Shown here piece by piece: positions 23,261-40,268 of a stretch of 40,357 nt of DNA; position 1 is the stretch's first letter; each line of letters begins with the position of its first letter. Source of the stretch: a virus. Position numbers and translations under genes: made by a program. The stretch lies in the IMG/VR virus record IMGVR_UViG_3300024054_000179, positions 1 through 40,357 of that record, one strand, 5' to 3'. Under the pieces are notes generated by a model, which worked only from the letters and a program-made list of their open reading frames with translations, made no database searches and was not told the origin of the DNA.

Positions 23261-24640
23261 TTAAACTGAAATATATGGCTTCAATGGTTTCTTTAGAATA
23301 AAATACATTCGCATCATTATTGCATCTCCAAAATCTGAAGATCTTCCTATTAATTCTTTTATATTTTCTTTTGGCGTTACTTGAAGCGGTTGATCTTTGT
23401 CTGCATTATGATTCTTTATCTGCTCTAAGTCTCCGATAATTAATTCTTTATGTTTTGGATCTATTTCTTTATAGATACTTATTTTTCCACTATTAACCAT
23501 CTCAGAAAGATAAAAATAGCATTGTGATTTAAGGTTTTTGTAGTTTGCTATATCCTTATGATTAAGCCTTTCAAGAGCCTTAGAATTGTTCACAAATCCT
23601 TTTATCCCCTTCATTTCGTCAACTATGCCACCACCTATGCCATCTTCATCAACTACTATATTTGATCGGGGTATTCCCTCTTTGCTGGCTAACCATTCTA
23701 AGAAGGTCCTTGTTTCTTTTAGACTTTTGTTCTGAAATACTGACAATTTAATAATATGAAAATGTTGCCATAATATAATAACTGTTTTATCTTCTCCGAA
23801 TCTAGCCACATCACACGTTATGTATTTTTGTTCTTTTGGAGTTTCTATATAATTATTTGTGAACATATCTAATATTTTATCATAATCAAATAATTTTGTG
23901 GGATCTTCATCATATTCCCAGTTTCCAAAAAGCAATCTTTCTTTTGAATTTTTGTCTAATTTGTGAAGATTTTCTATATAATGTTTAGATATAAATGGAT
24001 TGTCCGTGACTAATGCGTGCACAAATTTCCTATGTTTTAATAAATTTCCTTCTTTTTCTGCTTTATAAAATTCTTGATATAAAAAGTTTTTTGTAGGATT
24101 TGTTGCAGTCAATAATTTTGGGATCAATCCAAATTCATCAAGTCTATATCTTATTCTTGACATTACAATTAAATAGGCCTTATGGCTTACCTGGCTTGCT
24201 TCATCTATAAATGCTCCAGTATATTCAGTACTTCCAAGTTCATCGAACTCAGGATCACTCGGATATAAAAATAAATCCTTCAGATATATTTCACTTCCAT
24301 TGAACCATGTAACTATTCCACTCATAGAATTATATTTAAAATCTATTCCATTTTTTAATCCATAAATAGAACATAATCTAAAAAAAGTTAATAATGTACT
24401 CTCTTTTAATGTTTTAAGTATGGCCCTGCCCATTAGCCATCTGCTTCCTTGATATTTCAAGCATGATAAAATAAGCCAAAGACATCCAAGTACAGATTTT
24501 CCTCCACCCGCGCCACCTCCATATAAAACTTCTGTTGTTTCATTGTCTTGGAGTATCATTAGAGCTTGCTTCTGCTTTTTGCTCAGCTGTACTTGGCACT
24601 TCAATAAGTTCAAATCTATATCCTCTAATATTGTGTTCAT
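23261..24640 (-). CDS. terL: Terminase large subunit
   Basis: A 459-residue ATPase-nuclease that packages viral DNA into the prohead through the portal. Walker A is GGGAGGGKS at 41-49 and Walker B is GAFIDEAS at 142-149; TATNPTKN (178-185) is the coupling motif. The nuclease half has CDVARFGEDKT (Asp277), NIVVDEDGIGGG (Asp331/Asp333) and SSDFGDA (Asp436/Asp439), the RNase H-like acidic cluster. LSKKQKQALMIL (19-30) is the adenine-binding Q-motif region and supports the first ATG. The gene overlaps the small-subunit gene by 101 nt. Confidence 0.92.
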   Translation of the reverse strand: MNTILEDIDLNLLKCQVQLSKKQKQALMILQDNETTEVLYGGGAGGGKSVLGCLWLILSCLKYQGSRWLMGRAILKTLKESTLLTFFRLCSIYGLKNGIDFKYNSMSGIVTWFNGSEIYLKDLFLYPSDPEFDELGSTEYTGAFIDEASQVSHKAYLIVMSRIRYRLDEFGLIPKLLTATNPTKNFLYQEFYKAEKEGNLLKHRKFVHALVTDNPFISKHYIENLHKLDKNSKERLLFGNWEYDEDPTKLFDYDKILDMFTNNYIETPKEQKYITCDVARFGEDKTVIILWQHFHIIKLSVFQNKSLKETRTFLEWLASKEGIPRSNIVVDEDGIGGGIVDEMKGIKGFVNNSKALERLNHKDIANYKNLKSQCYFYLSEMVNSGKISIYKEIDPKHKELIIGDLEQIKNHNADKDQPLQVTPKENIKELIGRSSDFGDAIMMRMYFILKKPLKPYISV

Positions 24641-25010: not shown

Positions 25011-25013
25011 AAA

Positions 25014-25751: not shown

Positions 25752-26398
25752 GGATTTTGAAGCCTCCTATTTGTAATATCTACATATTTTTGAATTATAT
25801 CACATCCAATGAAATTTCTTTTAGTCATTTGAGCGGCTAAGGCGGTTGTTCCGCTACCCATAAATGGGTCTAGTACGATATCTCCTTCTTTTGAGTGATT
25901 TTCTATTAAATGTTTGACAACTTCAAGAGACTTTTGTGTTGGATGGATTTTCTTATCCTTTTTGAAATTTCTTTGTGGTCGAGATTTTTCTATAACTGTC
26001 CAATTATCTATCCATAACTTATTTTTTGTATCAAAATGAAAATTACCAGGGTTTTTAACAAACCACAAAATCGGTTCGTGATGTCCATTATAAGACCTTT
26101 TTCTTTGTATTCCTCCATTACGGTAATACCATATTAGCTCTTGCCAGAAAATTAATCCTGCCTTTCTTAATCTTTGTTCAACTTCAAGTCGGTTTTGTTT
26201 TCCACAGAATACTAAAAGAGAGGCATCATCCGCCATAACTCTGCTAATTTCATCACACCAAACTAAAGGAACCTTTTTATCCCACTCTTTTATCCCTACC
26301 CCATATGGTGGGTCTGTTAAGCATAAATCTGCAAATTTATCTGGCAATTGTTTTAAAAATTGCAATGCATCCATACAATAAACTTTATTAATTTCCAT
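25742..26398 (-). CDS. DNA amino-methyltransferase, second copy
   Basis: A 218-residue enzyme with LCLTDPPYGVGIKEWDK (motif IV, 29-32), HPTQKSLEVVKHLIENHS (target/motif X region) and DPFMGSGTTALAAQ (motif I). Beta-class order. It overlaps the next methyltransferase gene by 10 nt and the upstream one by 11 nt, so the three are translated together. Its sequence differs clearly from the neighbour, so each probably recognises a different DNA site. Confidence 0.85.
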   Translation of the reverse strand: MEINKVYCMDALQFLKQLPDKFADLCLTDPPYGVGIKEWDKKVPLVWCDEISRVMADDASLLVFCGKQNRLEVEQRLRKAGLIFWQELIWYYRNGGIQRKRSYNGHHEPILWFVKNPGNFHFDTKNKLWIDNWTVIEKSRPQRNFKKDKKIHPTQKSLEVVKHLIENHSKEGDIVLDPFMGSGTTALAAQMTKRNFIGCDIIQKYVDITNRRLQNPWI

Positions 26399-27695
26399 GT
26401 ATAATCTCCATTTTTGTATTTGGTTTATACATTAAAAATCTCTCAATTGATAAACTAATGTAATCTGGATCTATATCTATTCCATAGTATTTTCTATTTA
26501 ATTGATCACTTGCGATCATACTTGATCCTGATCCATGAAAGCAATCCAATACATTCTCATTTTCAAATGTGAAGAATCTTATGCAATTAAAAGGCAAATC
26601 TATGGGAAATGGCGCTGGATGATCTCCGCTTAATGTTGTTTCTGTCATCATTTCCCATACATTTCCTGCGAATTTATTCAATAATATGTTTGGTATCTGT
26701 TCTTTTCTTAATTTTTCTGAATCCCCATATTTATAAGTTATCATCTGATTAATTAATTCTGGCTGTTCTTCATTTGCATAAATTTGTATTATTTCTGTTT
26801 GTACTTTTGGAACATAATATCTTGGAAATGGATTTCTTGTTGTTATTGTTCCCCTGGCTGAACCGCTTGGTTTTTTCCAATAAATATTCCTAAAAAAAGT
26901 ATATCCCAATTCTTCAAATATCTGATCATATTTTGCTGGCATATTAATTGGCCCCCATTCTCTTCCAATATTATTGCATATGTATCTGCCTTTTTTCATG
27001 AATTGCTGACCATTCTCAAATACTTGCTTAATCATTTTAAGGTAATCATTTAATGGTTGTTTATCTTGATATTTACCATATGAAATATCAAGATTATATG
27101 GTGGACTAGTAATAATCAAATCTATCTTGTTATCTCCTATTAGTTTCTGCCATGTTTCTATTTTAGATGAATCCCCGCATATAATTGTATGATTATCTAA
27201 TTTAATTATATCCCCTTCTTGAATTCCATATTTATTCTTTCCTGTATATTCATCTTCAACACTAACAGCAAACATATCTTCTTTGTCTCTTTCTTTTAAT
27301 CCCAATAAATAATTAATTTCTTCAGTACTGAATCCTGTTGATCCTAGTAGGTCTTCATTTTTCTCATCTATATCCATTAATAAGTCTATAAGTTTATCTT
27401 CATCAAATTGACCAGATATTTTATTCATTGCGATATTAAGTGCTTTTTCTTGCTCTATTGATAATTCTTTATAAATAACATCTAATTTTTTCCAGTTTAA
27501 TTCTTTTGCTACTTTTAGCATTTGATGACCGCTTATTAAATTTCCAGAATTCTTGTTTATAATTAATGGTCTAAGTTGACCATGTTCTTTAATACTCTTT
27601 TTTAAATTATTAAAATCTTTTTCACTTATCTTTCTTGGATTATAATCTGCCTCTTTGACTGATTCAATGTCAATCTGTTCATATTCCATGATCAC
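26388..27695 (-). CDS. ParB-like domain fused to DNA methyltransferase
   Basis: The 435-residue protein starts with a ParB/Sulfiredoxin-type N-terminal domain: IDIESVKEADYNPRKISEKD, the GQLRPLIINKNSG strand and LISGHQMLKVAKELNW (about residues 8-95). The methyltransferase part has GDSSKIE, IITSPPYNLDISYG (motif IV, SPPY 197-200, more usual for N4-cytosine) and CFHGSGSSMIASDQ (motif I, about 390-404). ParB-methyltransferase fusions are common in phages; the ParB-like part is thought to act on CTP/ATP or DNA. The first codon is GTG overlapping the upstream stop (GTGA); an ATG two codons on is an alternative start at 27689. Confidence 0.85.
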   Translation of the reverse strand: MIMEYEQIDIESVKEADYNPRKISEKDFNNLKKSIKEHGQLRPLIINKNSGNLISGHQMLKVAKELNWKKLDVIYKELSIEQEKALNIAMNKISGQFDEDKLIDLLMDIDEKNEDLLGSTGFSTEEINYLLGLKERDKEDMFAVSVEDEYTGKNKYGIQEGDIIKLDNHTIICGDSSKIETWQKLIGDNKIDLIITSPPYNLDISYGKYQDKQPLNDYLKMIKQVFENGQQFMKKGRYICNNIGREWGPINMPAKYDQIFEELGYTFFRNIYWKKPSGSARGTITTRNPFPRYYVPKVQTEIIQIYANEEQPELINQMITYKYGDSEKLRKEQIPNILLNKFAGNVWEMMTETTLSGDHPAPFPIDLPFNCIRFFTFENENVLDCFHGSGSSMIASDQLNRKYYGIDIDPDYISLSIERFLMYKPNTKMEIIHGN

Positions 27696-28189
27696 TTTTT
27701 CTTTGTTACTTCTTCAAGTTCTTTTAGCTTTTCTCTAGCTCGCCTAATTGCACTTGGCTTATCTTCCATTACAGAATATGTATTTGAATATCCCTTGAAT
27801 TTATATATTGTAGTCTTGAACTTTATATCTAATCCAGGATGCTTTTTAGTCTCATATTCATCACTTACTTCTTTTTCATCTATTATTTCAAAGTTGTTTA
27901 AGTCTGAATATTTTGTCCAGTTTATTTTGAATGGTTTTATTTCTTCTGGTTTAAGATATCCATTCTTCCTTACATTCTTTTTAACTTCATCTTCCCAGTA
28001 ATCCTTAAAATCATCTCTTGCGGCTTTATCACAAAATGGAACGCCATTAGATATACATATTTGCATCTTTTTTCCTAATTCTTCATTAAATTTTTCTATT
28101 TCTGTTTTTTCCCTTCTTGAGGGATTTACAATAGGGATAAAATCTTTTTTTTCTGATTCTGTGGGTGTTCTAATTATTCCGTCTTCCAT
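27692..28189 (-). CDS. Hypothetical protein, 165 aa
   Basis: A 165-residue charged protein with no recognised domain. The start is MEDGIIRTPTESEKKDFIPI; a helical part runs at about 25-75 and a beta part at about 85-140 (FEIIDEKEVSDEYETKKH, IKFKTTIYKFKG). It ends in a basic helix (AIRRAREKLKELEEVTKKK). SD GGAGG lies 5 nt before ATG. It overlaps the methyltransferase by GTGA and probably shares its transcript. Function unknown. Confidence 0.6.
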   Translation of the reverse strand: MEDGIIRTPTESEKKDFIPIVNPSRREKTEIEKFNEELGKKMQICISNGVPFCDKAARDDFKDYWEDEVKKNVRKNGYLKPEEIKPFKINWTKYSDLNNFEIIDEKEVSDEYETKKHPGLDIKFKTTIYKFKGYSNTYSVMEDKPSAIRRAREKLKELEEVTKKK

Positions 28190-28198
28190 GCTACCTCC

Positions 28199-28516
28199 TT
28201 AGCCAACTCCTGTAGGCATATCACTATTTTCTTTCATCTCTACGCCCTCATTAAGTTGATTATTTAATTCTTTAATTATATCTTCTTTTAGTTTTATCTC
28301 TGCATTATATCCTACTATAGAGTTTTCTATTTCTAAATCTTCTTTTTCACGATTAAATGGTCTTACTTTATCTTCATATGCTCTTTTTTTAATTAAAAAT
28401 TCTTTATGTAATTGCATTATTTCTAATGAATTATTTAAATTAATTAATTGTTCTTTATTTTTTTCTATACCTTTCAAAGTTAATTCTTTTTCAGTTTCTG
28501 TTAATTGTCTTTTCAT
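28199..28516 (-). CDS. Coiled-coil hypothetical protein, 105 aa
   Basis: A 105-residue protein that is almost entirely charged helices with heptad character (ELTLKGIEKNKEQLINLNNS, KLKEDIIKELNNQ). Such proteins can be structural or regulatory; no motif identifies this one. It lies between two small genes in the accessory cluster before the terminase/methyltransferase region. Confidence 0.55.
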   Translation of the reverse strand: MKRQLTETEKELTLKGIEKNKEQLINLNNSLEIMQLHKEFLIKKRAYEDKVRPFNREKEDLEIENSIVGYNAEIKLKEDIIKELNNQLNEGVEMKENSDMPTGVG

Positions 28517-28970: not shown

Positions 28971-29624
28971 TTATTTATTTGATTGTGTGCAAGGGGACGC
29001 CCGTATCGCACACTCTAGTATATGTTTTCCTATTTGAGGCAATACACAATTTCTCAGAACTTGCCTTTTATTTTTTAATTTTAAATTTAAATTATTCAAT
29101 CCGTGTAAATCTATTAACTCTGGTATTTGCGCTTCTCGTATAATAGCTTTTCGTTGAGAATCTCTACTAGCTTTTCTATTCATTGTTCCTATTTGATAAT
29201 CTACTTTAATCGAATCAATTTTAAAATTTGACCAAAAACAATGCCTTCCAATTCGCTGGGGTTCGATTAATGGTTTGTAATATGGTTTAACATTTTCAAC
29301 TACCCATTTTCCTTTAAAAAAATGCTTTAAAAAAATTATTTCTTCATATAATTTCATGTCTGGGTATCTGAATATTCCTTGTCCTTTTAAAAAATGATTG
29401 CAACCAGAATGACTTTGACATGGAGGACTGCTCCATATAAAATCATAATTTTTAAAATATTTTAATAAAAATTCATGTGCATCCATGATAAATACATTAT
29501 CTTTTGGAAATAAGTTTTTATACACATATGCTATTTCTGGATTTAATTCTACTGCATCAATTTGATGATCTTCCCATAACTTTCTATTTCCCCCTATTCC
29601 AGCATAAAGATTTAATATTTTCAT
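28971..29624 (-). CDS. C5-cytosine DNA methyltransferase-like, short
   Basis: A 217-residue protein with LNLYAGIGGNRK (motif I, about 4-15), AVELNPE (motif II), SSPPCQSHSGC (motif IV with the catalytic Cys69) and VVENVKPYY (motif VI, 108-116). That is the order of C5-cytosine enzymes. It is much shorter than usual (over 300 residues), so the target-recognition part is small or missing, as in some phage enzymes. The ATG overlaps the stop of the upstream glycosyltransferase gene (ATGA). Confidence 0.75.
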   Translation of the reverse strand: MKILNLYAGIGGNRKLWEDHQIDAVELNPEIAYVYKNLFPKDNVFIMDAHEFLLKYFKNYDFIWSSPPCQSHSGCNHFLKGQGIFRYPDMKLYEEIIFLKHFFKGKWVVENVKPYYKPLIEPQRIGRHCFWSNFKIDSIKVDYQIGTMNRKASRDSQRKAIIREAQIPELIDLHGLNNLNLKLKNKRQVLRNCVLPQIGKHILECAIRASPCTQSNK

Positions 29625-30742
29625 ATTAATTTTAATATTTCTTGTGCTGTTTTATCCCAACTCATTTCTTTTGCTTTAGAGATACATTGTTCCCTTAAAT
29701 TCCTCAAATTCCCATTATAAGCCTCTCTGAGCGACTTTTTTAGTGCATCTATATCTGGGATTGCCCAATTTATTCCTTCATATTGCACTTCGTGTTTTAC
29801 TTCTGCTAGGGTATACGGAATTAAGCAACCTATTGCATATTCTGCTTGACCTCCGAAGTCTGTTGTTATTATTGGCAATCCACAACTCATTGCTTCTATG
29901 CATGGCAAATTAAATGCCTCTGCTCTGGTTGGACTTATGAATACATCTCCTTTATTATAGAAATTAATCATTTCATTGTATTGATAATTATTTAGATCTA
30001 TCAAAAATTCTGGAAGATTTTCTTTTTTGTCTGTAATTTGTTTGATTAAATTATCTATATCAGGAATTCCATAAGCAGAATTAATCTTAACAATCATGCG
30101 TACATTATCTTTGTCTGTAAATTCTTCTAAATATGCTTTAATTCCATATTGTATTCCACCTCTATCTTCTAAATTTCTAAGTCCTTTATTCATAAGAAAT
30201 GTAAATTTATCTTTTTTTGTTTCTTTTGGATAAAATAAATTTGAATCTACTCCATGTGGGATTATTATAATTTTATCCCACATTAGAATTCCTCTATAAT
30301 GCCATAATCCAGAATTAAAAATTGTAGTCCCAAGTTCATTTTTATCAAATTGGTCTAATTTTTTATGATATTGAAATAGAGTATTTAATAATGCTTGTTC
30401 TGTATGTTTACTTGGAACAATAATTTTATGTATATTTGGATTTAAGCATTCTTTAATAAAACTTTCTGGTATTCTATCTCCTTCCCATACTAAATAAGTA
30501 ATATTCTTCTTAGCATATGCATTTATTCTCCAGAATATTGGATGTGTAATAATCAAATTGACTTCATAATCTTCCTTCCTTTTGATCATTTCAAGTTCTT
30601 GATCATTTACTTCTCTTAACCAATTTGGATGAAGATTAGTTGTTATTTTGCATGGTATTAATTTGTTTAAAGCATTTACTAATTGTCTAAAATGAATATC
30701 ATATCCTGATTGTCCAAACAATGATCCTATACAATTTATCAT
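29621..30742 (-). CDS. Glycosyltransferase, GT4/GT-B type
   Basis: A 373-residue GT-B enzyme. The start (MINCIGSLFGQSGYDIHFRQ then LVNALNKLIP) is an acceptor-side Rossmann domain. The donor side has PHGVDSNLFYP near 185-195 and VFISPTRAEAFNLPCIEAMS, followed by GLPIITTDFGG, the signature that binds the nucleotide-sugar. This is the GT4 family pattern. Donor and acceptor are unknown. Coupled by ATGA to the gene on each side. Confidence 0.85.
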   Translation of the reverse strand: MINCIGSLFGQSGYDIHFRQLVNALNKLIPCKITTNLHPNWLREVNDQELEMIKRKEDYEVNLIITHPIFWRINAYAKKNITYLVWEGDRIPESFIKECLNPNIHKIIVPSKHTEQALLNTLFQYHKKLDQFDKNELGTTIFNSGLWHYRGILMWDKIIIIPHGVDSNLFYPKETKKDKFTFLMNKGLRNLEDRGGIQYGIKAYLEEFTDKDNVRMIVKINSAYGIPDIDNLIKQITDKKENLPEFLIDLNNYQYNEMINFYNKGDVFISPTRAEAFNLPCIEAMSCGLPIITTDFGGQAEYAIGCLIPYTLAEVKHEVQYEGINWAIPDIDALKKSLREAYNGNLRNLREQCISKAKEMSWDKTAQEILKLI

Positions 30743-31611
30743 TTTTTAACAAGATTATTCTCCTTCTGCAATTCCAATTTATCTGGCATATTTTCATGAG
30801 TAAATAATTTATTTAATTCTTCTTTATTTTCTTTTGTGAATTCTTCGAGTATTTGTTGATTGAATGGTACAAGATTCATTGTTGGTCTTTCTCCACCAGA
30901 TGGACAAATTAAATGATAATTAATTGCTCCAGTGTCACATCCAATTTTAAATCCTGCCATAAGCACCCTATAACTAAATATTTGTTCTTCACGGAATCCA
31001 TTCTTACTTAGTCTTGTTGGAAGATAATTCGCCTTTTTATGTATCTCGCTTTTATATAAGCAACATGATCTGAAATGATGTGCTGGGATTATAACACTTT
31101 CTGTGTATTCTTGTCCGCAGTCATCTGCATTCATTATATAGTTTCCTTCTTCATCAAGTATAACTCTATTTGCTATTCCTTTTAAAAACTTTGATTCTCT
31201 TATAAAAGTTGGAGTTATCATTGGAACTGTGACTCCTGTGGCCATATCATATCCTTGTTCTATAACATTAATTAATCTACTTAAATAATCTGGTTGAAGT
31301 ATCGTGTCGTCATCTAATCTGCATAGGTATTTATAATCGTTTATAGACATTGCCCAGTTAACTATTTCCTGCCTGGCTTTTGTTACTCCAAGATTAAAAT
31401 CTGTTCTTTTAATAAATACTTTGTGGTCTTCCATTTTTAATCTATTTATCATACAATTAAAGAAATGATAGTTAAACAGTGAGTTCCCAGAACAATCATC
31501 TAAAATAAATATATCAAATTTTTTATAATCTGAAGTTCTTAAACTTTGAAGCAATAAACTTATTTCTGTGGGTCTATCAAGTACGTTTATGAGTATTGCT
31601 GTTTCATTCAT
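30739..31611 (-). CDS. Glycosyltransferase, GT2/GT-A type
   Basis: I place the start at the ATG at 31611, 8 nt overlap with the upstream gene; a start 15 codons earlier (31656) would overlap more. The 290-residue enzyme has AILINVLDRPTEISLLLQSL, IFILDDCSGNS and LCRLDDDTILQPDYLSRLI (Asp100-Asp102, the DxD-type metal site). GT-A enzymes transfer a sugar from a nucleotide donor. It belongs to the glycan cassette. Confidence 0.85.
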   Translation of the reverse strand: MNETAILINVLDRPTEISLLLQSLRTSDYKKFDIFILDDCSGNSLFNYHFFNCMINRLKMEDHKVFIKRTDFNLGVTKARQEIVNWAMSINDYKYLCRLDDDTILQPDYLSRLINVIEQGYDMATGVTVPMITPTFIRESKFLKGIANRVILDEEGNYIMNADDCGQEYTESVIIPAHHFRSCCLYKSEIHKKANYLPTRLSKNGFREEQIFSYRVLMAGFKIGCDTGAINYHLICPSGGERPTMNLVPFNQQILEEFTKENKEELNKLFTHENMPDKLELQKENNLVKK

Positions 31612-32281
31612 CTTTAAATTCTCCGAGTTTCCATTTTTTTCTGAATAATTTTGCATGTTCTTTTTTTAGTTCTTCTGATTGATTAAAATGTTCTGTTTTT
31701 CTATGGTGTTCTACCCAGAAATCTGTCATATATAATCTTAATCCATCTTTATAAATTCGGTATGAATAATCAATGTCATCTCCGCATCCTGGAGAAAAAT
31801 TTTCGTCAAATAATCCTATTTTATTTATTGTTGATCTAGGAATAAATGTACTCCAAGTTCCTGCCCAAAATAATCCATTTATATAATCTGGTCCACTAAT
31901 CCCCCCAGCATTTAATGTTACAACTATTCCGCAATCTTTTTCTTTACTCGCTTTCACTAATTCTGCAAGCCAATCTCTTTCAAATAATCTAGGTACAATT
32001 ATGTCATCCTGCATTAAATAGACGTCTAAATCTTCCGCCATTTGTATTCCATAGTTTATTGCTTTTACTAATCCTTCTTTTTTTGTATGATAAACAATTA
32101 TATCTTTATTTGTATCTGCATAAAAATCGCATACTTCTGCTGTTCCATCTGTGCTTTCTGATTCTATTAAAATAAGTTTAAATGGATATTGTGTTCTATT
32201 TATTAATGCGTCTATTGCTATCTGAATGTATTTTCCAGAATTATGACAAGGCAATATAATTGCTACTGGTTTTTCTATCAT
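31604..32281 (-). CDS. Glycosyltransferase, GT2/GT-A type, 225 aa
   Basis: The 225-residue enzyme begins VAIILPCHNSGKYIQIAID and LILIESESTDGTAEV, with VYLMQDDIIVPRLF (Asp92-Asp93, metal site) and an ending with SPGCGDDIDYSYRIYKDG, the usual acceptor-side motif. Overlaps both neighbours; ATGA with the radical SAM gene upstream. Confidence 0.85.
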   Translation of the reverse strand: MIEKPVAIILPCHNSGKYIQIAIDALINRTQYPFKLILIESESTDGTAEVCDFYADTNKDIIVYHTKKEGLVKAINYGIQMAEDLDVYLMQDDIIVPRLFERDWLAELVKASKEKDCGIVVTLNAGGISGPDYINGLFWAGTWSTFIPRSTINKIGLFDENFSPGCGDDIDYSYRIYKDGLRLYMTDFWVEHHRKTEHFNQSEELKKEHAKLFRKKWKLGEFKDE

Positions 32282-33381
32282 ACTAAAAATCTCTCCATTT
32301 TATCTTGAATAAATACTTTTTCGAAGAATTGATTTGGCATTTCTAATGTACATCTATCACAATTTTTCTTAAAATTTATTTTTTTAACCTTCTTAAAATG
32401 ATCTTTACTTCCCCAATATTTTATTACTTTTTCAGGATTGGGATAATGGTCGCATAAATATGCCCATGGATTTCCTCTTGAATCGGTGCACATATATACT
32501 TTTCCATCTGCACACCATGTTGTTGTCAACATTGTTGCTCTGCATTTTTTAAAATCGTGTTTTTTTGAAAAATCTGAATTAAATTTATGAGTAACTCCAA
32601 AAACTTTAAAATTATCACAATCAAGTTCTTTTTGAGCTCTATTTATTTGCTGTTTTATCATTTCTATCTGACCCATATCAAAATGATAATCTATATTAAT
32701 TGCTGGTCTGAATTGGAATGTATTGCATCCTATTTCTTTTGCTAATTTTGCGGCTTGATATATTGTTTGATAATTTTCTTCGTCCAATAAGAATTTAAAT
32801 CCAATGTTACATTTTGATTTCATTTTTTCCTTTGTTTTTACTAATCCCCTAATATTATTTATAACTGTATTAAATTGGCATTTTGGCACTCCTTTGACTG
32901 CTGAGTATGTCTCTTCGTTTCCAGCATCAATGCTAAATCCAACCCATTTGCATGTTTTTATTACAATATTCCATTTCCTTTCATTATTCACTAAAAATCC
33001 ATTACTTACAAATCCTATATCTATTCCTTGTTTATGAGAATCCAACAAATGATCAAAACAATAAGGATGCATTGTTGGCTCTCCACCACCTCCAACACAT
33101 TCTGCTTTAATTCCCCATCTTTTCCATAATTTTGGTAATTTTTTTATATGAAATGAATTAAGTTCTGAGTTGTCGTTTCTGAATATTTCACTTGTTTTAT
33201 CTGCTCTTTTTCTTCCCCCAAACATGCAAAATCTGCATTTATAGTTGCATTTATTTGTCATATCAAAATTAACAACTATTGGGTTCAATGGTTTTCCTTT
33301 TAATATTGCTTCATAATGCGCAGAATGTACTAAGCTTTTCATACTATTAAAAGGATTTATTGAATCTGACCACTCGCTCAT
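32278..33381 (-). CDS. Radical SAM protein, SPASM-like
   Basis: A 367-residue protein with CNYKCRFC at residues 45-52 (the CxxxCxxC [4Fe-4S] motif), CVGGGEPTMHP (the GGE motif that binds SAM), a FVSNGF strand and a late Cys cluster (CADGKVYMCTDSRG, then CDRC at 341-344), as in SPASM/twitch domains that hold extra Fe-S clusters. Such enzymes modify peptides, sugars or cofactors by radical chemistry. A viral copy between glycosyltransferases suggests sugar or glycoprotein modification; the substrate cannot be told from the sequence. Confidence 0.85.
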   Translation of the reverse strand: MSEWSDSINPFNSMKSLVHSAHYEAILKGKPLNPIVVNFDMTNKCNYKCRFCMFGGRKRADKTSEIFRNDNSELNSFHIKKLPKLWKRWGIKAECVGGGGEPTMHPYCFDHLLDSHKQGIDIGFVSNGFLVNNERKWNIVIKTCKWVGFSIDAGNEETYSAVKGVPKCQFNTVINNIRGLVKTKEKMKSKCNIGFKFLLDEENYQTIYQAAKLAKEIGCNTFQFRPAINIDYHFDMGQIEMIKQQINRAQKELDCDNFKVFGVTHKFNSDFSKKHDFKKCRATMLTTTWCADGKVYMCTDSRGNPWAYLCDHYPNPEKVIKYWGSKDHFKKVKKINFKKNCDRCTLEMPNQFFEKVFIQDKMERFLV

Positions 33382-34007
33382 TTTACTACTTCCAAAATAA
33401 ATTTAATTTCTCTTTCTTCATTAAATAATTCTCTTTTAATTATATTGAAGAATGCTCCTCTGGTTTGTTTTAATTCATTTTGAACACTTCTATGCTCTGG
33501 TCTCCATCTATCAAAATATGAATAACTAATCTGCCTTAAATGGTCTGGTTGAATTGATGCAAACACATTATGTCCATTAGGGCATATTATTGTTATTGTT
33601 CCTTTATTTTTTGTTACTCTCCACATTTCATATATAAAAAGAAATATATCTTTTACATGTTCAATTACATGACTTGTGTATATTTCATCAAATTTATCTG
33701 AATCAAAAGGCAATCCTTCATCTATATTTCTTATTATATCGGGGTATGTCTTTTCATCATAATCCAAATTAATAAAATCTATTTTTGGTCTGAATCCGCT
33801 ACCTATATTTAATTTAATTTTATCTGATTTATAGTATTTTCTTAATTCTTTATGAAATCTTGCTGATAAATCTGAATTTGTTTCCATCATTCTCATTAGT
33901 TCATCATTTGCCAATATTTCATTCTTTTCTTGATTAAAATCTATTTCATTATTTTCAAATATAAATTTTACCATAGTTTTTCTATTATTCTTCCATTTAT
34001 TATACAT
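33378..34007 (-). CDS. SAM-dependent methyltransferase, type 11
   Basis: The 209-residue protein has LNIGSGFRPKIDFINLD (motif I, about 66-82), GLPFDSDKFDEIYTSHVIEH and VTKNKGTITIICPNGHN, the class I fold of small-molecule or sugar methyltransferases. The C-terminal part is short. Start choice: the first ATG follows GGAGG by only 3 nt, and an ATG at 33974 is an alternative. It lies among glycosyltransferases and probably methylates a sugar or glycan. Confidence 0.75.
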   Translation of the reverse strand: MYNKWKNNRKTMVKFIFENNEIDFNQEKNEILANDELMRMMETNSDLSARFHKELRKYYKSDKIKLNIGSGFRPKIDFINLDYDEKTYPDIIRNIDEGLPFDSDKFDEIYTSHVIEHVKDIFLFIYEMWRVTKNKGTITIICPNGHNVFASIQPDHLRQISYSYFDRWRPEHRSVQNELKQTRGAFFNIIKRELFNEEREIKFILEVVK

Positions 34008-34060
34008 TTTCCTCCTTGAGGAAATGTTAATATTCTTTTACAGATTTTACATTTAACCAT
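33968..34060 (-). CDS. Very short Cys-containing frame, 30 aa
   Basis: An open frame from the ATG at 34060 to the TAA at 33968, whose stop overlaps the alternative methyltransferase start at 33974. The peptide starts MVKCKICKRILTFPQGGKC, a CxxC plus Cys pattern. It fills the gap between two enzymes. It may be a mini zinc-binding protein or chance. Confidence 0.35.
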   Translation of the reverse strand: MVKCKICKRILTFPQGGKCIINGRIIEKLW

Positions 34061-34073
34061 AATTGTTGATGTA

Positions 34074-35396
34074 TCATTTGTTATTTGATTGTTGTTGCAT
34101 TTGCATTTTACGATTATAAATACCATTCTTTAAATATCCTATTAATATTTGCTGGTTAAATAACCAATCTTTAGGAGCCTCCCTTATTTCAAATTCATGA
34201 TCATTAAACTTTTTTATCCATTCTTCTTTTGTCTTAAATTGTTTATGCGTATTATCTGCTTCAAGATTTGGATCTCCAATAAATGGAATGCTAAATATAA
34301 ATATACAATCCTCTTTTATATTTTCTAATGCAAGTTCTAATTCTTCATTATTTAAATGTTCAAGTACATCTATACATAATACCATATCTGGTTGTTTTTT
34401 TGTGTTTGTATTTATTATATTTCCGTGAATTAAATCTACTTTAAATGGATTAAACATTATTGCATATTTGCTTATTTCAATTCCTGAATATATTGCATTT
34501 GCGAATTTTGCTGCAACCCCATATGGTCCTAATCCCGCACCATATTCAAGAATGTATGGATTATAATCTATTGGCATTGCTAACTCTTTTTTAATATAAT
34601 CTACCCATTGCTTCATCATAATAAAATGTTTAACTTCTAAGTAACGCCCTTGAAAATAGAATTCATCTTTATCTATTCCAAATTCATTTAAAATAATTGA
34701 TGGGATTTCTATGGGATTAATTTCTGATTTTGGATATTTTCCAAATAAATGAGAATAATACCAATTTTTTAGATATTCTGGAGTATGCATATTTGATTTT
34801 TTCATATGGTTTTCATATCTTTTTTTTAATTCCCACATATTTGGAGCATATGCTATATGCCATATTGTTGTACAATCTGTGAATGCACTTACTTTTTTAG
34901 TATCATTATTTTGCAATACTGGATGCTCAACTTCTGGATATGATCTGGCTTCGCTTATTTTGAATAATCTATTTAATACATAATGTTCTTTTTGGGTTGC
35001 ATCTTCATGTCCGAGATCACCAATGAAATGCCTCATTTTAACTGAATATAAATTTGGTATTGCTTTTTGAATAAATTCTTTTATTTTATCTATATCTTCA
35101 ACTACTTCATCTGCATCAATACATAATGCCCAGTCATTTGGATGAAATTCTTTAAGATAATTTAAATAAAAATTTCTTTGTTTTCCATTCATTGCTTTAT
35201 CTTCTTGATTATAATCATTTTTTATTATTATAACCTCTCTATCTTTTCTGGTATTTTCAATTACTATATCTTGTGACTTGTCTTTACTTCCTCCATCACA
35301 GAATACTACGGCATCTGCATCTTTAATACTTTTAATATTCATTTTTATAAATCTTTCACAATCCTGCCCCATTATAACTACAATTAATTTTTCCAT
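34074..35396 (-). CDS. Glycosyltransferase-methyltransferase fusion
   Basis: A 440-residue protein in two halves. Residues 1-240 are a GT2/GT-A glycosyltransferase: IVVIMGQDCERFIKMNIKSI, VVFCDGGSKDKSQDIV and ALCIDADEVVED (DxD at 94-96). Residues 270-430 are a class I methyltransferase: YILEYGAGLGPYG (motif I, 281-293), MVLCIDVLEHLNNEE and FIFSIPFIGDPN. The two activities could add a sugar and methylate it. The C-terminus ends in a Gln/Asn tail. TGATG overlap with the downstream gene's side. Confidence 0.8.
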   Translation of the reverse strand: MEKLIVVIMGQDCERFIKMNIKSIKDADAVVFCDGGSKDKSQDIVIENTRKDREVIIIKNDYNQEDKAMNGKQRNFYLNYLKEFHPNDWALCIDADEVVEDIDKIKEFIQKAIPNLYSVKMRHFIGDLGHEDATQKEHYVLNRLFKISEARSYPEVEHPVLQNNDTKKVSAFTDCTTIWHIAYAPNMWELKKRYENHMKKSNMHTPEYLKNWYYSHLFGKYPKSEINPIEIPSIILNEFGIDKDEFYFQGRYLEVKHFIMMKQWVDYIKKELAMPIDYNPYILEYGAGLGPYGVAAKFANAIYSGIEISKYAIMFNPFKVDLIHGNIINTNTKKQPDMVLCIDVLEHLNNEELELALENIKEDCIFIFSIPFIGDPNLEADNTHKQFKTKEEWIKKFNDHEFEIREAPKDWLFNQQILIGYLKNGIYNRKMQMQQQSNNK

Positions 35397-35608
35397 CAGT
35401 TAAAAAAGAAATATTGTATTTGCCTCCTGCAGTTTAATTCATCCATTGGAAGTCTTTTTGAGCAATATTTGCTGTCTAATGCACAAGTTCCAACTATAAT
35501 TTGATTATATCTTTTAGGATTTCTGATATATCCACATATTGCGTCCGTTCCATAGGTATTTTGTAGCCTTATATCTTCATTCATTGTTACATCAACCAAT
35601 TTCTTCAT
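35396..35608 (-). CDS. Small Cys-containing protein, 70 aa
   Basis: A 70-residue protein with Cys at about 25, 42, 49 and 60 (ICGYIRN, GTCALDSKYCSKR, LNCRRQ), possibly a metal site. A second Met at residue 9 is an alternative start. Overlaps the nuclease gene upstream by 17 nt and the fusion enzyme by TGATG, so translated with the cassette. Unknown family. Confidence 0.5.
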   Translation of the reverse strand: MKKLVDVTMNEDIRLQNTYGTDAICGYIRNPKRYNQIIVGTCALDSKYCSKRLPMDELNCRRQIQYFFFN

Positions 35609-36050
35609 TTAATTTAAATTCTTCATATTTAATCTCTTTTTTATTCTTGCTTGCAATAACTATAGGTATCTTTAAATTTATTTTTATCCATTTGCATTTT
35701 TCTCTTTCTTCTGGTGTAAGATAACCATTAATCTTGCATTCTACTAATCGAATATCAAAAATTGGAGTAATATTCATATTCCATTTTCCTTTAGGAAGAC
35801 ATTGTATTCCATATCCATTTGTCTTAAATTTTATGCATAAAAAGTCTGGAAATCCTCCAGAATTCATAATTAAACTTTTTGTAAATGGATTAAACTTTGG
35901 CTTTGAATTTATCAATTTTTTATTAATTAAATCAATATTTTTATCCCATCTTATAACTATCCATCCTTTTTTTTCAAGGTCTTCTCTAATTTTGCGCTCA
36001 AATTCTTTCCCTTTTTGCCTATTTTTTCTTCCTTTTGTCTTATTGTCCAT
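35592..36050 (-). CDS. PD-(D/E)XK nuclease-like protein
   Basis: A 152-residue protein with a basic start (KTKGRKNRQKGKEFERKIRE, helix with Glu17/Glu20), GGFPDFLCIKF (Asp69) and RLVECKINGYLTPEEREKCK (Glu104-x-Lys106). The set Glu...Asp...ExK is the active site of the PD-(D/E)XK fold, and the helix order is that of Holliday-junction resolvase/VRR-like nucleases. It may cut branched DNA or invading DNA. Located within the sugar-enzyme cassette. Confidence 0.75.
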   Translation of the reverse strand: MDNKTKGRKNRQKGKEFERKIREDLEKKGWIVIRWDKNIDLINKKLINSKPKFNPFTKSLIMNSGGFPDFLCIKFKTNGYGIQCLPKGKWNMNITPIFDIRLVECKINGYLTPEEREKCKWIKINLKIPIVIASKNKKEIKYEEFKLNEEIG

Positions 36051-36237
36051 CTGTTATTTCCTTTAATCTGCTTTCAACATATTGCCTATTAAACATCCAA
36101 TAAAGGTCTTTTATTTTTACTGGGGTATATGATCTACATATTTTATTTCTTTCATTTGATTTACAATGATTGCAATCTCCATGATCTTTTGATGCAATTA
36201 ATTCTGGATTGAATTGATATATGCATATTATTTCCAT
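36040..36237 (-). CDS. Small Cys-rich protein, 65 aa
   Basis: The 65-residue protein has Cys at about 5, 22, 25 and 34 with a GDCNHCKSNERNKICRSYTP centre, a likely Cys3-4 metal site. Its ends overlap both neighbours (11 nt with the nuclease gene, 10 nt with the radical SAM gene). Could be a nucleic-acid or partner-binding zinc knuckle. Unknown family. Confidence 0.5.
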   Translation of the reverse strand: MEIICIYQFNPELIASKDHGDCNHCKSNERNKICRSYTPVKIKDLYWMFNRQYVESRLKEITDGQ

Positions 36238-37418
36238 AGTTCTCTTGCTTTAGTTACTAATTCCTCAATTTTGCTTAATTTTAATTTTTCTGTTTCTACA
36301 ACAGGTTTGGCATTCTTCCCTGCTTGAAGATAATTTCTCCAATTATTATCTACAATTTTTAATCCAAATCTTTCTGGATTTCTGAATATTGGTGTACCAG
36401 GGAATGGCATTAAATAATAGAAATCTGCTGTTGTAAGTCCAACATCTCTTAACCTTTTTGAGAAATCTATGGTTTGCATTGCAGTTTGTTCTGTCTCTCC
36501 TGGCAGTCCAATTATGAAAAATCCCTTGGTCTTTATTCCTCTTCTATATGCTTCCCTAACTGCAATATAATTATCTAATGTTGTCATTCCTTTTCTTGAA
36601 TTTAATAAAATGTCATCGTTTCCTGATTCTATCCCCATGCTTAACCATTCGCATCCAGAATCTGCTAATTCATCCAATTTTGCAGGATTAAGTAAATTAG
36701 CTCTTGTTGTTACTCTAAATGGCATATTTAATCCACTTAAAACTGATCTCATTCTTTCCATATTCATTGTGAATACATCATCAAGAAAATAAACTGATTC
36801 AAATCCTGCCCTATCTATTTGCTCAAATTGATTAAATATGTCATCAAGAGTATTATATCTGACTTGATGTTCCATATTTCCACAAAATGAACATGAATAT
36901 GGACATCCTCTACTTGTTATCATTGTTGCTTGTTTTTTTCCTATCCCATATTTTCTTAAGTCAATAAATCTAAAATCTAATGGTGGTATTGTTGCAAGAT
37001 TAACTCTACTTGCCTTAATAATCCCGTCCTGGTCTAATGCTTCAATCATTGCATCTTCTCCTTCTCCTTGGACTACTGCATCAAAATAATCTGTCAATGT
37101 TTCTGGCATGAATGTTGCATGATATCCCCCAGCTATAAGTCTTGCTTCAGTTTCTTCTAAGTTTTCTGCTAAGTCAACAGCACGATCATACATACAACTT
37201 GTATAAGCAGATATCCCTATAGCTCGTGGTCTTTCACGATATGCTTGCTGTATTACTTCTTCTCTACCTTGATGGTTTAAATCAAAAACTTTTGGCTTGA
37301 ATCCGTGTTTCCTTAAATTTCCTGCTATACTAATTAACCCTATAGGTACTCTATCTCCTGCATGCTCAAGTATTCCTTCTTCACTTGGGTTAATTAAATA
37401 AATAATGTTTTTTTCCAT
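36228..37418 (-). CDS. B12-binding radical SAM protein
   Basis: The 396-residue protein begins with a cobalamin-binding-type Rossmann domain (GLISIAGNLRKHGFKPKVFD, RAIGISAYTSC, LIAGGYHATFMPE, residues 20-110) and then a radical SAM domain with SRGCPYSCSFCGN (Cys172, Cys176, Cys179). GESVYFLDD-type and KTKGFFIIGLPGETEQTAM segments are typical of this superfamily. The usual cobalamin DxHxxG motif is not visible, as in many family members. Enzymes of this class methylate or rearrange carbon frameworks of lipids, tetrapyrroles, antibiotics or sugars. A viral copy is unusual. It overlaps the glycosyltransferase by 25 nt. Confidence 0.85.
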   Translation of the reverse strand: MEKNIIYLINPSEEGILEHAGDRVPIGLISIAGNLRKHGFKPKVFDLNHQGREEVIQQAYRERPRAIGISAYTSCMYDRAVDLAENLEETEARLIAGGYHATFMPETLTDYFDAVVQGEGEDAMIEALDQDGIIKASRVNLATIPPLDFRFIDLRKYGIGKKQATMITSRGCPYSCSFCGNMEHQVRYNTLDDIFNQFEQIDRAGFESVYFLDDVFTMNMERMRSVLSGLNMPFRVTTRANLLNPAKLDELADSGCEWLSMGIESGNDDILLNSRKGMTTLDNYIAVREAYRRGIKTKGFFIIGLPGETEQTAMQTIDFSKRLRDVGLTTADFYYLMPFPGTPIFRNPERFGLKIVDNNWRNYLQAGKNAKPVVETEKLKLSKIEELVTKARELWK

Positions 37419-38620
37419 TTTTCATATACTTTTCCAAAATCATATTCTCTTTCAACTGCAATTCTTCCATTTTTACCTAATTCTTTTATTGTATTTTGAT
37501 TTAAGTAAAGTTTTATAATTTTTTCTGCTCCATCAGTGATAGAACAACATCCTCTTTCAACTTCCCAACTTCCCATAATAGTTCCATTAATAGATTTTAT
37601 GTCTGCTTCTTGCAAGTTTATATCATTCCAATTAATTGTTTCTACCCCACTTAAGTCTATTCCTATTCCAGATTGATTATCTTTCACTAATTCCTGGCAA
37701 GTTGTATAATCTGTCATAAGCACTGGAACTTCACAACTCATTGCTTCTATTATGGGTATTCCAAATCCTTCCCCGCTTGTTGTCAATAGAAAAACGTCCA
37801 TTAAATTATATATTTCATTCATTTTATTCCAATCAAATCCTTTATGTGCTTGCATTCCAGAGAATATTACTCTATTTTCAAGTCCGTATTTTTGAATTAC
37901 ACTAGCCATATTAAATGATTGTGCGGCATCATTGGGGTCCAAATGAAGAAATAGAACAGCATGGGGTATTTTTTCTTTTATTATTCTCATTATTTTGAAT
38001 GTTCTATCAAGAAATTTTCTTGGTTGATTTCTTGCAACTACTCCAATCACAAATTTATCATTAAATCCCCATCTTGCTCTTAATTCATTTCTTTCCTTAT
38101 CAGGTAACCTAAAAAATCTTTTTTTATCTATTCCGTGAGGTATATAATCTGCCTTTATCTGATAATAATCAAATACCTGTTTTTGTCCAAATTTGGACAT
38201 CGCGACAGGACAATCTACTTTTTTTAGTATGTTTTCACATCCTTTTGGCATTCCACCACCACCATCTGATGGGAACCAAAAATAAGTTTTTGCTGGGCTT
38301 AAATCTAATTCTAATAACCATGGATAAAGCATGAATGTATCGAGCAAAATAATTAATATATCACTCTTTGTTTCTTTCAAATGCTGGCTTAATTGATTTC
38401 TAAAATAATCTTGTCCGTATGCACTTCCGTATATTTTTGCTTTTATTTTTGTTCCATCTGTTAGTTCTATACCATTCATTGTTGCTCCAATATATGCATT
38501 TGCCAGATAATGAATCTCATGCCCGTCATTTTCAAGGTGTTGAATAAGTTGTATTGCTTGATTTCTATATCCTGTTGGGATGAATGGAGCATCTGATAAA
38601 ACTGTTATTATCTTTTTCAT
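37394..38620 (-). CDS. Glycosyltransferase, GT4/GT-B type, 408 aa
   Basis: The 408-residue enzyme begins KKIITVLSDAPFIPTGYRNQ (acceptor-side domain), then YIPHGIDKKRFFRLPDKERN, VIGVVARNQPRKFLDR and, on the donor side, TSGEGFGIPIIEAMSCEVPV, the nucleotide-sugar signature of GT4 enzymes. It is the first gene of the cassette transcript side and overlaps the upstream 68-aa gene by ATGA. Donor and acceptor unknown. Confidence 0.85.
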   Translation of the reverse strand: MKKIITVLSDAPFIPTGYRNQAIQLIQHLENDGHEIHYLANAYIGATMNGIELTDGTKIKAKIYGSAYGQDYFRNQLSQHLKETKSDILIILLDTFMLYPWLLELDLSPAKTYFWFPSDGGGGMPKGCENILKKVDCPVAMSKFGQKQVFDYYQIKADYIPHGIDKKRFFRLPDKERNELRARWGFNDKFVIGVVARNQPRKFLDRTFKIMRIIKEKIPHAVLFLHLDPNDAAQSFNMASVIQKYGLENRVIFSGMQAHKGFDWNKMNEIYNLMDVFLLTTSGEGFGIPIIEAMSCEVPVLMTDYTTCQELVKDNQSGIGIDLSGVETINWNDINLQEADIKSINGTIMGSWEVERGCCSITDGAEKIIKLYLNQNTIKELGKNGRIAVEREYDFGKVYEKWKKTLFI

Positions 38621-38823
38621 ATTTTTGCGTCTTCAAATTTATAATCTTTTAATTCTTTTGTTGTAATTATCGAATTTCCTCCAGAAGTATATATAATAGA
38701 ACATCCTGATTTTTCAACATCAAATTCAATTCCTTTAAAAAAAATAGCTATCTCATTTGGTACTGTTAAACCATATACTATTTGTTTTTTACAAGACATC
38801 ACCTTTCTTAATTTTAATCTCAT
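38617..38823 (-). CDS. Small hypothetical protein, 68 aa
   Basis: A 68-residue beta-rich protein (KKQIVYGLTVPNEIAIFFKG, CSIIYTSGGNSIITTKEL) with two Cys. A TATA-like box 24 nt before the ATG implies a leaderless transcript that would also carry the downstream glycosyltransferase. It looks like a small fold of unknown function, possibly the first gene of the large cassette. Confidence 0.55.
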   Translation of the reverse strand: MRLKLRKVMSCKKQIVYGLTVPNEIAIFFKGIEFDVEKSGCSIIYTSGGNSIITTKELKDYKFEDAKI

Positions 38824-39334: not shown

Positions 39335-39420
39335 TATCCCATTGCCTCTGCTTTTATTTTATCGATTATTTCTTTTTCCAATTCATCAAAAGCTTGTTCT
39401 AATTCTTTATCTTCTATCAT
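39334..39420 (-). CDS. Short frame matching a lost C-terminus of the Cys-repeat gene
   Basis: An open frame of 28 codons from the ATG at 39420 to the TAA at 39334-39336. It starts inside the end of the Cys-repeat gene in another frame; its first residues (EDKEL) match the residues after NDR in the upstream copy at 39765-40268. A missing GA relative to that copy explains the shift. It may now be translated alone by overlap, or be the dead tail of the gene. Confidence 0.4.
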   Translation of the reverse strand: MIEDKELEQAFDELEKEIIDKIKAEAMG

Positions 39421-39763
39421 TTTTTAGTTCCTCCATTTTCTTCTCGTATTCTTCTTTAGTTACTTCTATATTGCAGATATAATAACCTGTTTTTTTATTG
39501 TGTAAGTTCCTGCAATAAGAGCAATTAGAGCAATTGAAGCAATAAGAGCAATAAGAGCAATCAGAGCAATAAAAGCAATAAGAGCAATCAGAGCAATCAG
39601 AGCAATTGAAGCAATCAGTGCAATAAGAGCAATCAGAGCAATTGAAGCAATCAGAGCAATTGAAGCAATTAGAGCAGTAATTTTTTGGAGCTAAATCATC
39701 AGTCCATTTATAATTAAATAACTCTTGCTTGCTCATCTTCAAGATTTCTTCTTTAGTTTTCAT
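39407..39763 (-). CDS. Cys-triplet repeat protein B
   Basis: The 118-residue protein begins MKTKEEILKMSKQELFNYKW, then has Cys at every third residue from about 30 to 84 (units CSD, CSY, CFN), a linker and the end NDRR. The tripeptide period resembles a metal-binding, collagen-like or extended repeat; no characterised family comes to mind. The DNA repeat uses TGC codons throughout. Compared with copy A, the frame is cut after NDR by a 2-nt difference. It has its own start right after the upstream stop, with a 41-bp direct repeat around it. Confidence 0.75.
   Translation of the reverse strand: MKTKEEILKMSKQELFNYKWTDDLAPKNYCSNCFNCSDCFNCSDCSYCTDCFNCSDCSDCSYCFYCSDCSYCSYCFNCSNCSYCRNLHNKKTGYYICNIEVTKEEYEKKMEELKNDRR
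39512..39680 (-). repeat. 9-bp-type coding repeat of gene B
   Basis: A run of triplet-of-codons units, plus strand GCAATCAGA or GCAATAAGA, encoding C-S/F-D/Y/N. The near-identity of units points to recent expansion by slippage or unequal exchange. Confidence 0.85.
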
Positions 39764-39784
39764 GCTAATCTACCCGCTTGTTTT
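39744..39784. repeat. 41-bp direct repeat, copy 1
   Basis: A perfect 41-bp direct repeat shared with 40249-40289, spanning the end of one Cys-repeat gene (coding NKRVD, stop) and the start of the next (MKTKEEI). The copies lie 505 bp apart, the length of one gene unit, so the genes arose by tandem duplication and could be lost or gained by recombination. Confidence 0.9.
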
Positions 39785-40268
39785 CATTCTCCAATTCTTT
39801 AAGTTTATCCCTAGCTAACTTCTCAAGAGCTTCTTGGATAACAATATTGTCCTTAGATTGCATGATTAACTGCTCTGCTTCTTTCAGGACATTGCCCCAT
39901 ATCTGCTCTGCTCTACTCGTTGCGATCTTCAATCCTAATTCTTTATCTTCTCTATCATTTTTCAACTCCTCCATTTTCCTCTCATATTCTTCTCTAGTTA
40001 ATTTAATATTGCAGATACAATAACTTTCTCTTCTTAGATTTCTACAGCAATAACAATTAAAACAATAAAAACAACCATCACAATCAAAACAACCATCACA
40101 ATTTGAACAATTAAAACAATCAGAACAATCATTACAATTATGGCAATGAGCACAATTTGAACAATTATAACAATCAGAACAATCATCTTCTTCATCAAAA
40201 TCGTCATTCCATTTATAAGCAAATAATTCTTTTTTATTCATCCTTAAAATTTCTTCTTTAGTTTTCAT
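39765..40268 (-). CDS. Cys-triplet repeat protein A
   Basis: The 167-residue protein begins MKTKEEILRMNKKELFAYKW, then an acidic DDFDEEDDC start and Cys at every third residue from 30 to 75 (CSD, CYN, CDG, CFY units), ending CCRNL. A helical C-terminal part follows (EEYERKMEELKNDREDKELG, then SRAEQIWGNVLKEAEQLIM and a KLARDKLKELENENKRVD-type end). This seems to be the intact form. The repeat is written mostly with TGT codons, unlike copy B. Function unknown; metal binding or virion surface roles are possible. Confidence 0.75.
   Translation of the reverse strand: MKTKEEILRMNKKELFAYKWNDDFDEEDDCSDCYNCSNCAHCHNCNDCSDCFNCSNCDGCFDCDGCFYCFNCYCCRNLRRESYCICNIKLTREEYERKMEELKNDREDKELGLKIATSRAEQIWGNVLKEAEQLIMQSKDNIVIQEALEKLARDKLKELENENKRVD
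40030..40190 (-). repeat. 9-bp-type coding repeat of gene A
   Basis: Same kind of repeat as in gene B but with TGT Cys codons and more varied units (plus strand ACAATCAGA, ACAACCATC), so it is older or has expanded separately. Confidence 0.8.

Follow-up and report, generated by a model that had tools for sequence, protein, structure and literature searches.

Viral cassettes that combine glycosyltransferases (GTs), methyltransferases (MTases) and radical S-adenosylmethionine (SAM) enzymes (rSAMs) are already known, e.g. from pelagimyophages and from the spring-water podovirus ctQWt234 (MW202801). According to the available parts of the published accounts, GTs of mycobacteriophages attach sugars to the capsid and the tail tube (PMC12363180), capsid or tail being the likely substrate of the phage-encoded GTs of Che8, Corndog and Myrna (Freeman et al. 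2023), and the host-recognition cluster of pelagimyophages carries GTs in a hypervariable region in which relatives differ by rSAM cassettes (PMC7029224). The locus analysed here resembles both: it is a cassette of GT, MTase and rSAM genes that occupies positions 38620 to 28971 of the 40,357-bp IMG/VR virus record IMGVR_UViG_3300024054_000179, which was analysed over its whole length and is referred to below as the window. In our view, with a probability of roughly 55%, it is best explained as a virus-owned locus of an archaeal-type tailed virus that makes a rare-sugar glycan, most likely for the virus's own virion proteins, with modules that are swapped between relatives.

The original prediction, made by a model from the letters and a list of open reading frames (ORFs), had read in this region five GTs (two GT4, two GT2 and one GT2-MTase fusion), two rSAMs and a type-11 MTase, each of which was confirmed by Pfam; it had missed a C5-cytosine DNA MTase at 28971-29624, and the set is interrupted by three small ORFs. 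The cassette genes are the following:

37394..38620, minus strand: GT4a, a GT4 glycosyltransferase of 408 amino acids (aa), first backbone gene (Pfam 2.7e-20)
36228..37418, minus strand: B12-binding rSAM, 396 aa, CX3CX2C at 172-179 (Pfam B12-binding 4.5e-18, radical SAM 2.5e-23)
36040..36237, minus strand: small ORF, 65 aa (ORF list)
35592..36050, minus strand: PDDEXK-like nuclease ORF, 152 aa (nuclease motif recognised by eye)
35396..35608, minus strand: small ORF, 70 aa (ORF list)
34074..35396, minus strand: GT2-MTase fusion, 440 aa, second backbone gene (weak single Pfam matches, 4e-5 to 6e-4)
33378..34007, minus strand: type-11 SAM MTase, 209 aa, variable module (Methyltransf_11 4.4e-7)
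32278..33381, minus strand: SPASM-like rSAM with abridged C-terminus, 367 aa, variable module (Pfam 1.2e-16)
31604..32281, minus strand: GT2c glycosyltransferase, 225 aa, backbone (Pfam 5.3e-19)
30739..31656, minus strand: GT2d glycosyltransferase, 305 aa, backbone (Pfam 6.1e-12)
29621..30742, minus strand: GT4b glycosyltransferase, 373 aa, last backbone gene (Pfam Glycos_transf_1 2.2e-13)
28971..29624, minus strand: compact C5-cytosine DNA MTase, 217 aa (Pfam 7.3e-8)

The PHROGs annotation of the GTs agreed with Pfam, and a 422-aa homologue of the GT2-MTase fusion has a clear MTase domain (Methyltransf_23 1.2e-8). The names glycogen synthase and sucrose synthase were rejected for the window GT4s, whose scores were far under the respective cut-offs. 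Counted from 28971, adjacent genes overlap by 4, 4, 53, 4 and 4 bp and then, after a gap, by 1, 17, 11, 10 and 25 bp; the proposed coupling of all genes by overlaps is thus borne out in the range of 1-53 bp, except at the 66-bp gap at 34008-34073, which separates the GT2-MTase gene from the type-11 MTase gene. The cassette proteins appear to be cytoplasmic and the GTs lack a strong membrane segment, the highest hydropathy maximum being 1.57 (GT4a) compared to 1.76-2.57 in four membrane-type ORFs tested. The PDDEXK-like ORF at 35592-36050, without a match in Pfam or PHROGs, is probably a mobile passenger outside the sugar pathway; relatives of it were seen in the L161 cassette and in L003 and L159.

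The cassette is more than a chance assembly, since its gene order recurs in independent contigs. Single-protein scans of IMG/VR with each of the rSAMs or with the portal gave no match and alignments were needed; in alignment-based scans, GT4a was found at 34 loci with 40-66% identity and GT2d at 25 loci. Gene order was compared in 51 sequences, many of them fragments, i.e. 49 IMG/VR contigs, one DPANN-binned contig and the window; this set consists of the contigs fetched by the GT4a and GT2d scans plus L062, L063, L098, contig 11 of genome G196 and the window, with other fetched terminase loci excluded from the gene-order count. Across dozens of IMG/VR contigs and the Nanoarchaeota-binned virus, the order GT4a, GT2-MTase, GT2c, GT2d, GT4b, terminase is conserved. 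The respective families were present in 35 (GT4a), 36 (GT2-MTase), 28 (GT2c), 35 (GT2d) and 33 (GT4b) of the 51 sequences, whereby the contigs had been fetched via GT4a, GT2d or the terminase large subunit (TerL) and these presence counts, but not the order counts, are conditioned on the fetching. Colinear pairs on the same strand were obtained in 30/31 cases for GT4a and GT2-MTase, 23/23 for GT2-MTase and GT2c, 27/27 for GT2-MTase and GT2d, 22/22 for GT2c and GT2d, 32/32 for GT2d and GT4b, and 17/17 for GT4b and TerL. The five exceptions to the backbone order all come from a single contig that is cut inside the cassette, as a circular genome predicts. ORFs were clustered by BLASTP thresholds, by which distant members can be missed; a truncated cluster (c31) was counted as GT4b, and GT4a was distinguished from GT4b according to which of the two window genes gave the higher bit score.

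Between the conserved ends, the cassette is variable. The window carries an MTase and the SPASM-like rSAM at this place, where other viruses carry, for example, E1/transketolase halves, a cupin and a GDP-mannose dehydratase/epimerase, or a class-V aminotransferase, a UDP-sugar dehydrogenase, a cytidylyltransferase and a GT2-FkbM protein. In the same 51 sequences, the B12 rSAM family was present in 17, the SPASM-like rSAM in 12, the type-11 MTase in nine, the transketolase halves in eight and ten, epimerases in 25, the class-V aminotransferase in eight and the UDP-sugar dehydrogenase in seven. Among 89 further non-backbone cassette proteins (at least 90 aa, from contigs with locus references, larger named clusters excluded), 28 were NAD epimerases/dehydratases and six were cytidylyltransferases, among the 25 of 66 families listed. 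These modules differ between viruses whose TerL proteins share 66-72% identity. A sister virus of 43,448 bp, for instance, has the same capsid/tail order and cassette position as the window (TerL 67%, major capsid protein (MCP) 66% identity) and orthologues of GT4a (47%), GT2-MTase (49%), GT2c (39%), GT2d (54%) and GT4b (46%), together with a B12 rSAM that is a 27% relative of the one in the window; its middle genes encode E1/transketolase halves, a cupin, a GDP-mannose-dehydratase-like epimerase, another epimerase and a short-chain dehydrogenase/reductase. In one case, two contigs whose TerL proteins are only 53% identical share a 4.2-kb block with GT2d and GT4b at 98.7% identity (L197 9562-13700 and L195 5210-9397); this could be a recent cassette exchange or a chimeric assembly, as the two contigs share one sampling project.

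Two observations on sister cassettes are added here. At L197:8053-9555, there is an IscB-like RRXRR/HNH protein (Pfam RRXRR 1.1e-66; ORF assigned from its sequence). Some sister cassettes, e.g. L166:16203-18756, combine a PaaK-like ligase (recognised by eye, without a Pfam match) with a HAD phosphatase and a class-V aminotransferase, which might form a module for decoration with amino compounds.

Both rSAMs probably perform radical chemistry on a sugar. The structural model of the B12 rSAM (predicted local distance difference test score (pLDDT) 90.9) has the fold of AprD4 (6fd2) as best match with Z 33.9 and a root-mean-square deviation of 2.7 over 380 aligned residues, followed by MgmA (Z 31.1) and CysS (Z 30.9); AprD4 is also its best sequence match in the PDB (1.1e-16). 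According to Pfam and alignment, the protein combines a B12-binding domain with an rSAM core containing CX3CX2C, and cobalamin binding is predicted. AprD4, a radical SAM 1,2-diol dehydratase with a crystal structure that contains paromamine, an aminoglycoside precursor, shares the fold of the window enzyme at 23% identity. The B12 rSAM is predicted to be a sugar deoxygenase or C-methylase. In the model of the SPASM-like rSAM (pLDDT 80.2), three folds are tied, DesII with Z 25.0 over 344 residues, BlsE with 24.4 and SkfB with 24.2. BlsE is a sugar-acting enzyme. DesII, the TDP-4-amino-4,6-dideoxyglucose deaminase, has a similar fold at 11% identity; it deaminates a TDP-sugar, as stated in the available part of PMC11434129. 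In 10/12 sequences, the SPASM-like rSAM gene precedes GT2c (or the GT2-FkbM version of it), separated from it by no more than one small ORF; the predicted substrate of the enzyme is a sugar or a sugar nucleotide. We do not file the two rSAMs as AprD4 or DesII because both are well under the NCBIfam cut-offs (64.2 bits against a required 500 for AprD4, 30.1 bits against a required 450 for DesII).

A SPASM signature consists of seven C-terminal cysteines. The label SPASM-type that had been given to the second rSAM is a loose one: its CX3CX2C core (C45, C49, C52) is invariant in 12/12 aligned proteins, and so are C280, C298, C341 and C344 in the C-terminal part, which makes four cysteines instead of the seven of the signature. 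Two further names were rejected for this enzyme, tungsten-enzyme maturase, its best NCBIfam score (78.8 bits, cut-off 380), and prokaryotic viperin (pVip; 69.9 bits, cut-off 180). The presence of two rSAMs in a viral cassette had been called unusual, a view that finds no support in this lineage: at least two rSAMs occur in six of the 51 sequences compared, and viruses with rSAM cassettes are described in the available parts of PMC7029224 and PMC9723712. In the phage collection, a match to the B12 rSAM was found in Streptomyces phage SF3, in a different gene context.

The window is a near-complete, circularly permuted genome of a tailed virus, of which a small part may be missing. We read it as circularly permuted because homologues of the left-end genes w2030, w1573 and w1391 lie upstream of homologues of the right-end genes w39128, w38865 and w38617, just before GT4a, in L164, L168, L172 and L173; a 43,354-bp sister contig whose ends fall inside the cassette also fits a circular genome. 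The cassette and the annotated late genes are all on the minus strand, and from right to left the order is small early ORFs, cassette, small conserved ORFs, DNA N-methyltransferases, terminase, portal, head genes and tail genes. The neighbours of the cassette are:

38617..38823, minus strand: small conserved ORF, 68 aa, immediately upstream of GT4a (homologues in 25/51 sequences, mostly just before GT4a)
27692..28516, minus strand: a pair of conserved small genes that separate GT4b from the terminase, 165 and 105 aa (in 22/51 and 20/51 sequences)
27695-25014, minus strand: DNA N-methyltransferases
25010-23261, minus strand: terminase small and large subunits (small subunit assigned from position)
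23261..24640, minus strand: TerL, the syntenic anchor downstream of the cassette
23208-21130, minus strand: portal-MuF fusion
18773-17910, minus strand: head protease
17458-16589, minus strand: MCP

Beyond the MCP follow the tail tube, tape measure, baseplate hub and fibre-like proteins. The DNA MTases at 25014-27695 between cassette and terminase are three tandem N4/N6 enzymes, one with a fused ParB N-terminal domain, and a similar MTase lies upstream of the terminase in L003, L004 and L063. The packaging module is a mosaic, TerL (23261-24640) being ~50% identical to that of Flavobacteriia phages and the portal-MuF protein (21130-23208) weakly similar to portals of haloarchaeal viruses. Elsewhere in the window, two paralogous Cys-rich proteins with repeated CxxC units and nearly identical leader sequences are encoded at 39407-39763 and 39765-40268 (homologue at L161:5826-6092), and a DUF7666 protein carrying a run of SAWDSA-like repeat units at 265-1107.

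The locus belongs to the virus. That it might be flanking DNA of a host chromosome, an alternative raised by the original prediction in terms of close chromosomal synteny, is ruled out by the capsid/terminase synteny, the recurrence in IMG/VR and the almost complete lack of the GT4a family in cellular genomes: it was found in 1/371 Nanoarchaeota-phylum genomes (on a viral contig of G196, a genome that also contributed a row to the GT4a query A2) and in 0/379 Patescibacteria-phylum genomes. The host is likely a DPANN archaeon of the Nanoarchaeota phylum for the virus group, and the same may hold for the window virus. The nearest TerL of the genome collection (58%) lies in a Nanoarchaeota metagenome-assembled genome (MAG), beside archaeal chromosomal genes as read by eye. 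A more distant virus is present on two contigs binned in G196, which belongs to the same phylum as a named Nanoarchaeota MAG. Compared to the window, the G196 virus shows identities of 48% (MCP), 31% (portal), 55% (GT4a), 43% (GT2-MTase), 47% (GT2d), 39% (GT4b) and 31% (SPASM-like rSAM); its cassette also holds an epimerase and more GTs, the B12 rSAM was not seen in it, and its sliding clamp is nearest to archaeal PCNA (8.3e-11). The MCP profile matched 4/371 Nanoarchaeota-phylum genomes versus 0/379 Patescibacteria-phylum genomes, strongly in G196, which itself supplied an MCP row to the profile, and weakly in the other three (2.2e-19 to 1.6e-18); in two of the four, the match lies on contigs of at least 75 and at least 224 kb. 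A spacer-style DNA search of window positions 5800-25700 against the 371 Nanoarchaeota-phylum genomes gave matches in 191 of them, nearly all weak and chance-like, the exceptions being two genuine viral loci in G196 and, in G007 (the L013 genome), the terminase region; we claim no CRISPR link from this search.

With regard to function, the five soluble GTs may assemble a short oligosaccharide in the cytoplasm of the host and methylate it, while the exchangeable genes between them would supply or edit activated sugars. In the window, this module would comprise the type-11 MTase, the SPASM-like rSAM and the B12 rSAM, with the rSAMs most likely removing or altering a ring substituent, by DesII/AprD4-like deoxygenation or by C-methylation, which would yield a rare sugar. 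The glycan would most likely be attached to capsid or tail proteins of the virus itself, and swapping of modules would change the glycan type of the particle. We favour decoration of the virion because the GTs are soluble and virus-encoded, genes for a lipid carrier, a flippase or a ligase were not seen in the cassette, the neighbours are packaging and capsid genes, and mycobacteriophages offer a precedent. Remodelling of the host surface is rather unlikely by comparison and nonetheless a serious rival, because published readings of similar gene sets favour it; here, the GTs would extend or modify an S-layer, lipid or envelope glycan and thereby block superinfection or aid release, like O-antigen conversion. 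The modules do look like O-antigen sugar pathways, but Pfam revealed no flippase, polymerase, ligase or polyprenyl-phosphate transferase in the cassette, whose GTs are without a strong membrane segment and which shares its strand with the terminase and capsid genes and is near the late module.

Of the uses proposed originally, glycosylation of virions or of the host surface fits best, and both the sugar chemistry and the viral ownership are supported, whereas hypermodification of DNA, i.e. glycosylation of bases that had first been methylated or oxidised, as a protection from restriction, is very improbable. The C5 MTase gene abuts GT4b, three N4/N6 MTases follow downstream and GTs of other phages glycosylate DNA according to the available part of PMC7029224; however, no Pfam match to a hydroxymethylase (nucleotide hydroxymethylases included) or to TET/JBP was found in 30 window proteins and one of the small ORFs, the C5 MTase is a sporadic passenger whose family occurs in just 3/51 sequences compared to a nearly constant GT backbone, and a base-linked sugar should need fewer genes than five GTs plus epimerase/transketolase modules. 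Slightly less improbable is the adjacency of two unrelated functions, glycosylation on one side and rSAMs for peptide, cofactor or viperin-like nucleotide chemistry on the other. The best NCBIfam scores of the SPASM-like rSAM, although under cut-off, are indeed those of the tungsten-enzyme maturase and pVip, and SkfB is among its tied folds; the rSAM adjoins GT2c or GT2-FkbM in most sequences that have it, as described above, and is replaced by sugar-nucleotide genes in sister viruses, both of which speak against this reading.

Several points weigh against our preferred reading of a rare-sugar glycan on the virion. The backbone GTs could just as well act on the surface of the host, and gene sets with GTs and rSAMs or O-antigen genes in pelagimyophages and in methanogen viruses are read as host-surface change in the available parts of PMC7029224 and PMC9723712. 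The sugar reading of the SPASM-like rSAM is not forced because DesII, BlsE and SkfB are tied and SkfB, a maturase of ribosomally synthesised and post-translationally modified peptides, acts on a peptide; MgmA, the next-nearest fold of the B12 rSAM, is a peptide methylase as well. The host link rests on binned MAG contigs and on MCP matches three of which, out of four, are weak, and TerL relatives of ~50% identity occur in Flavobacteriia phages and also on Bacteroidota genome contigs. N-X-S/T sequons were not enriched in 12 structural or tail proteins compared to 1000 shuffles, which argues against N-linked sugars added via the host oligosaccharyltransferase, but not against direct cytoplasmic glycosylation. 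Finally, the sugar reactions, the virion target and the selective reason are all things that we infer.

If the glycan is indeed carried by the virion, the cassette might tentatively be seen as a serotype-like locus in tailed viruses of ultra-small archaea, in which a fixed line of five GTs is combined with an interchangeable sugar-nucleotide slot, in some cases with rSAM deoxygenation, so that near-same capsids would wear different rare-sugar coats exchanged by recombination. Devoting a quarter of a 40-kb genome to a glycan implies that surface sugars are under strong selection. The conserved backbone with its swappable modules amounts to a natural experiment, the same acceptor enzymes being combined with different sugars, and opens donor chemistry, GT specificity and the contribution of virion glycans to host range to module-by-module tests. 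The two rSAMs of the window are candidate new sugar-modifying catalysts.

DPANN archaeal viruses are sparsely covered in the literature searched, in which the combination of DPANN, virus, glycosyltransferase and radical SAM was not found; nor did the available parts of these sources contain a description of DPANN-associated tailed viruses in which a slot for exchangeable sugar-nucleotide genes is set in a fixed backbone of five GTs. Among the known systems, podovirus ctQWt234 has a cassette of rSAM (27% to the window's), GT, PhyH, MTase, NodB and GT between its capsid and tail genes, and the cassette of phiPsal1 likewise adjoins capsid genes; order and partner genes of ctQWt234 differ from those of the window, of which no other protein matched MW202801 by tblastn. 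The mycobacteriophages, with their actinobacterial hosts, carry few GTs, and no conserved five-GT backbone with swappable sugar-nucleotide/rSAM modules is seen in the available part of the published account. The pelagimyophages are myophages of SAR11 and have their cassette in the tail-fibre region, with no conserved GT order reported in the available part of PMC7029224, unlike the lineage of the window, in which the order of the GTs is maintained while the sugar modules between them change.

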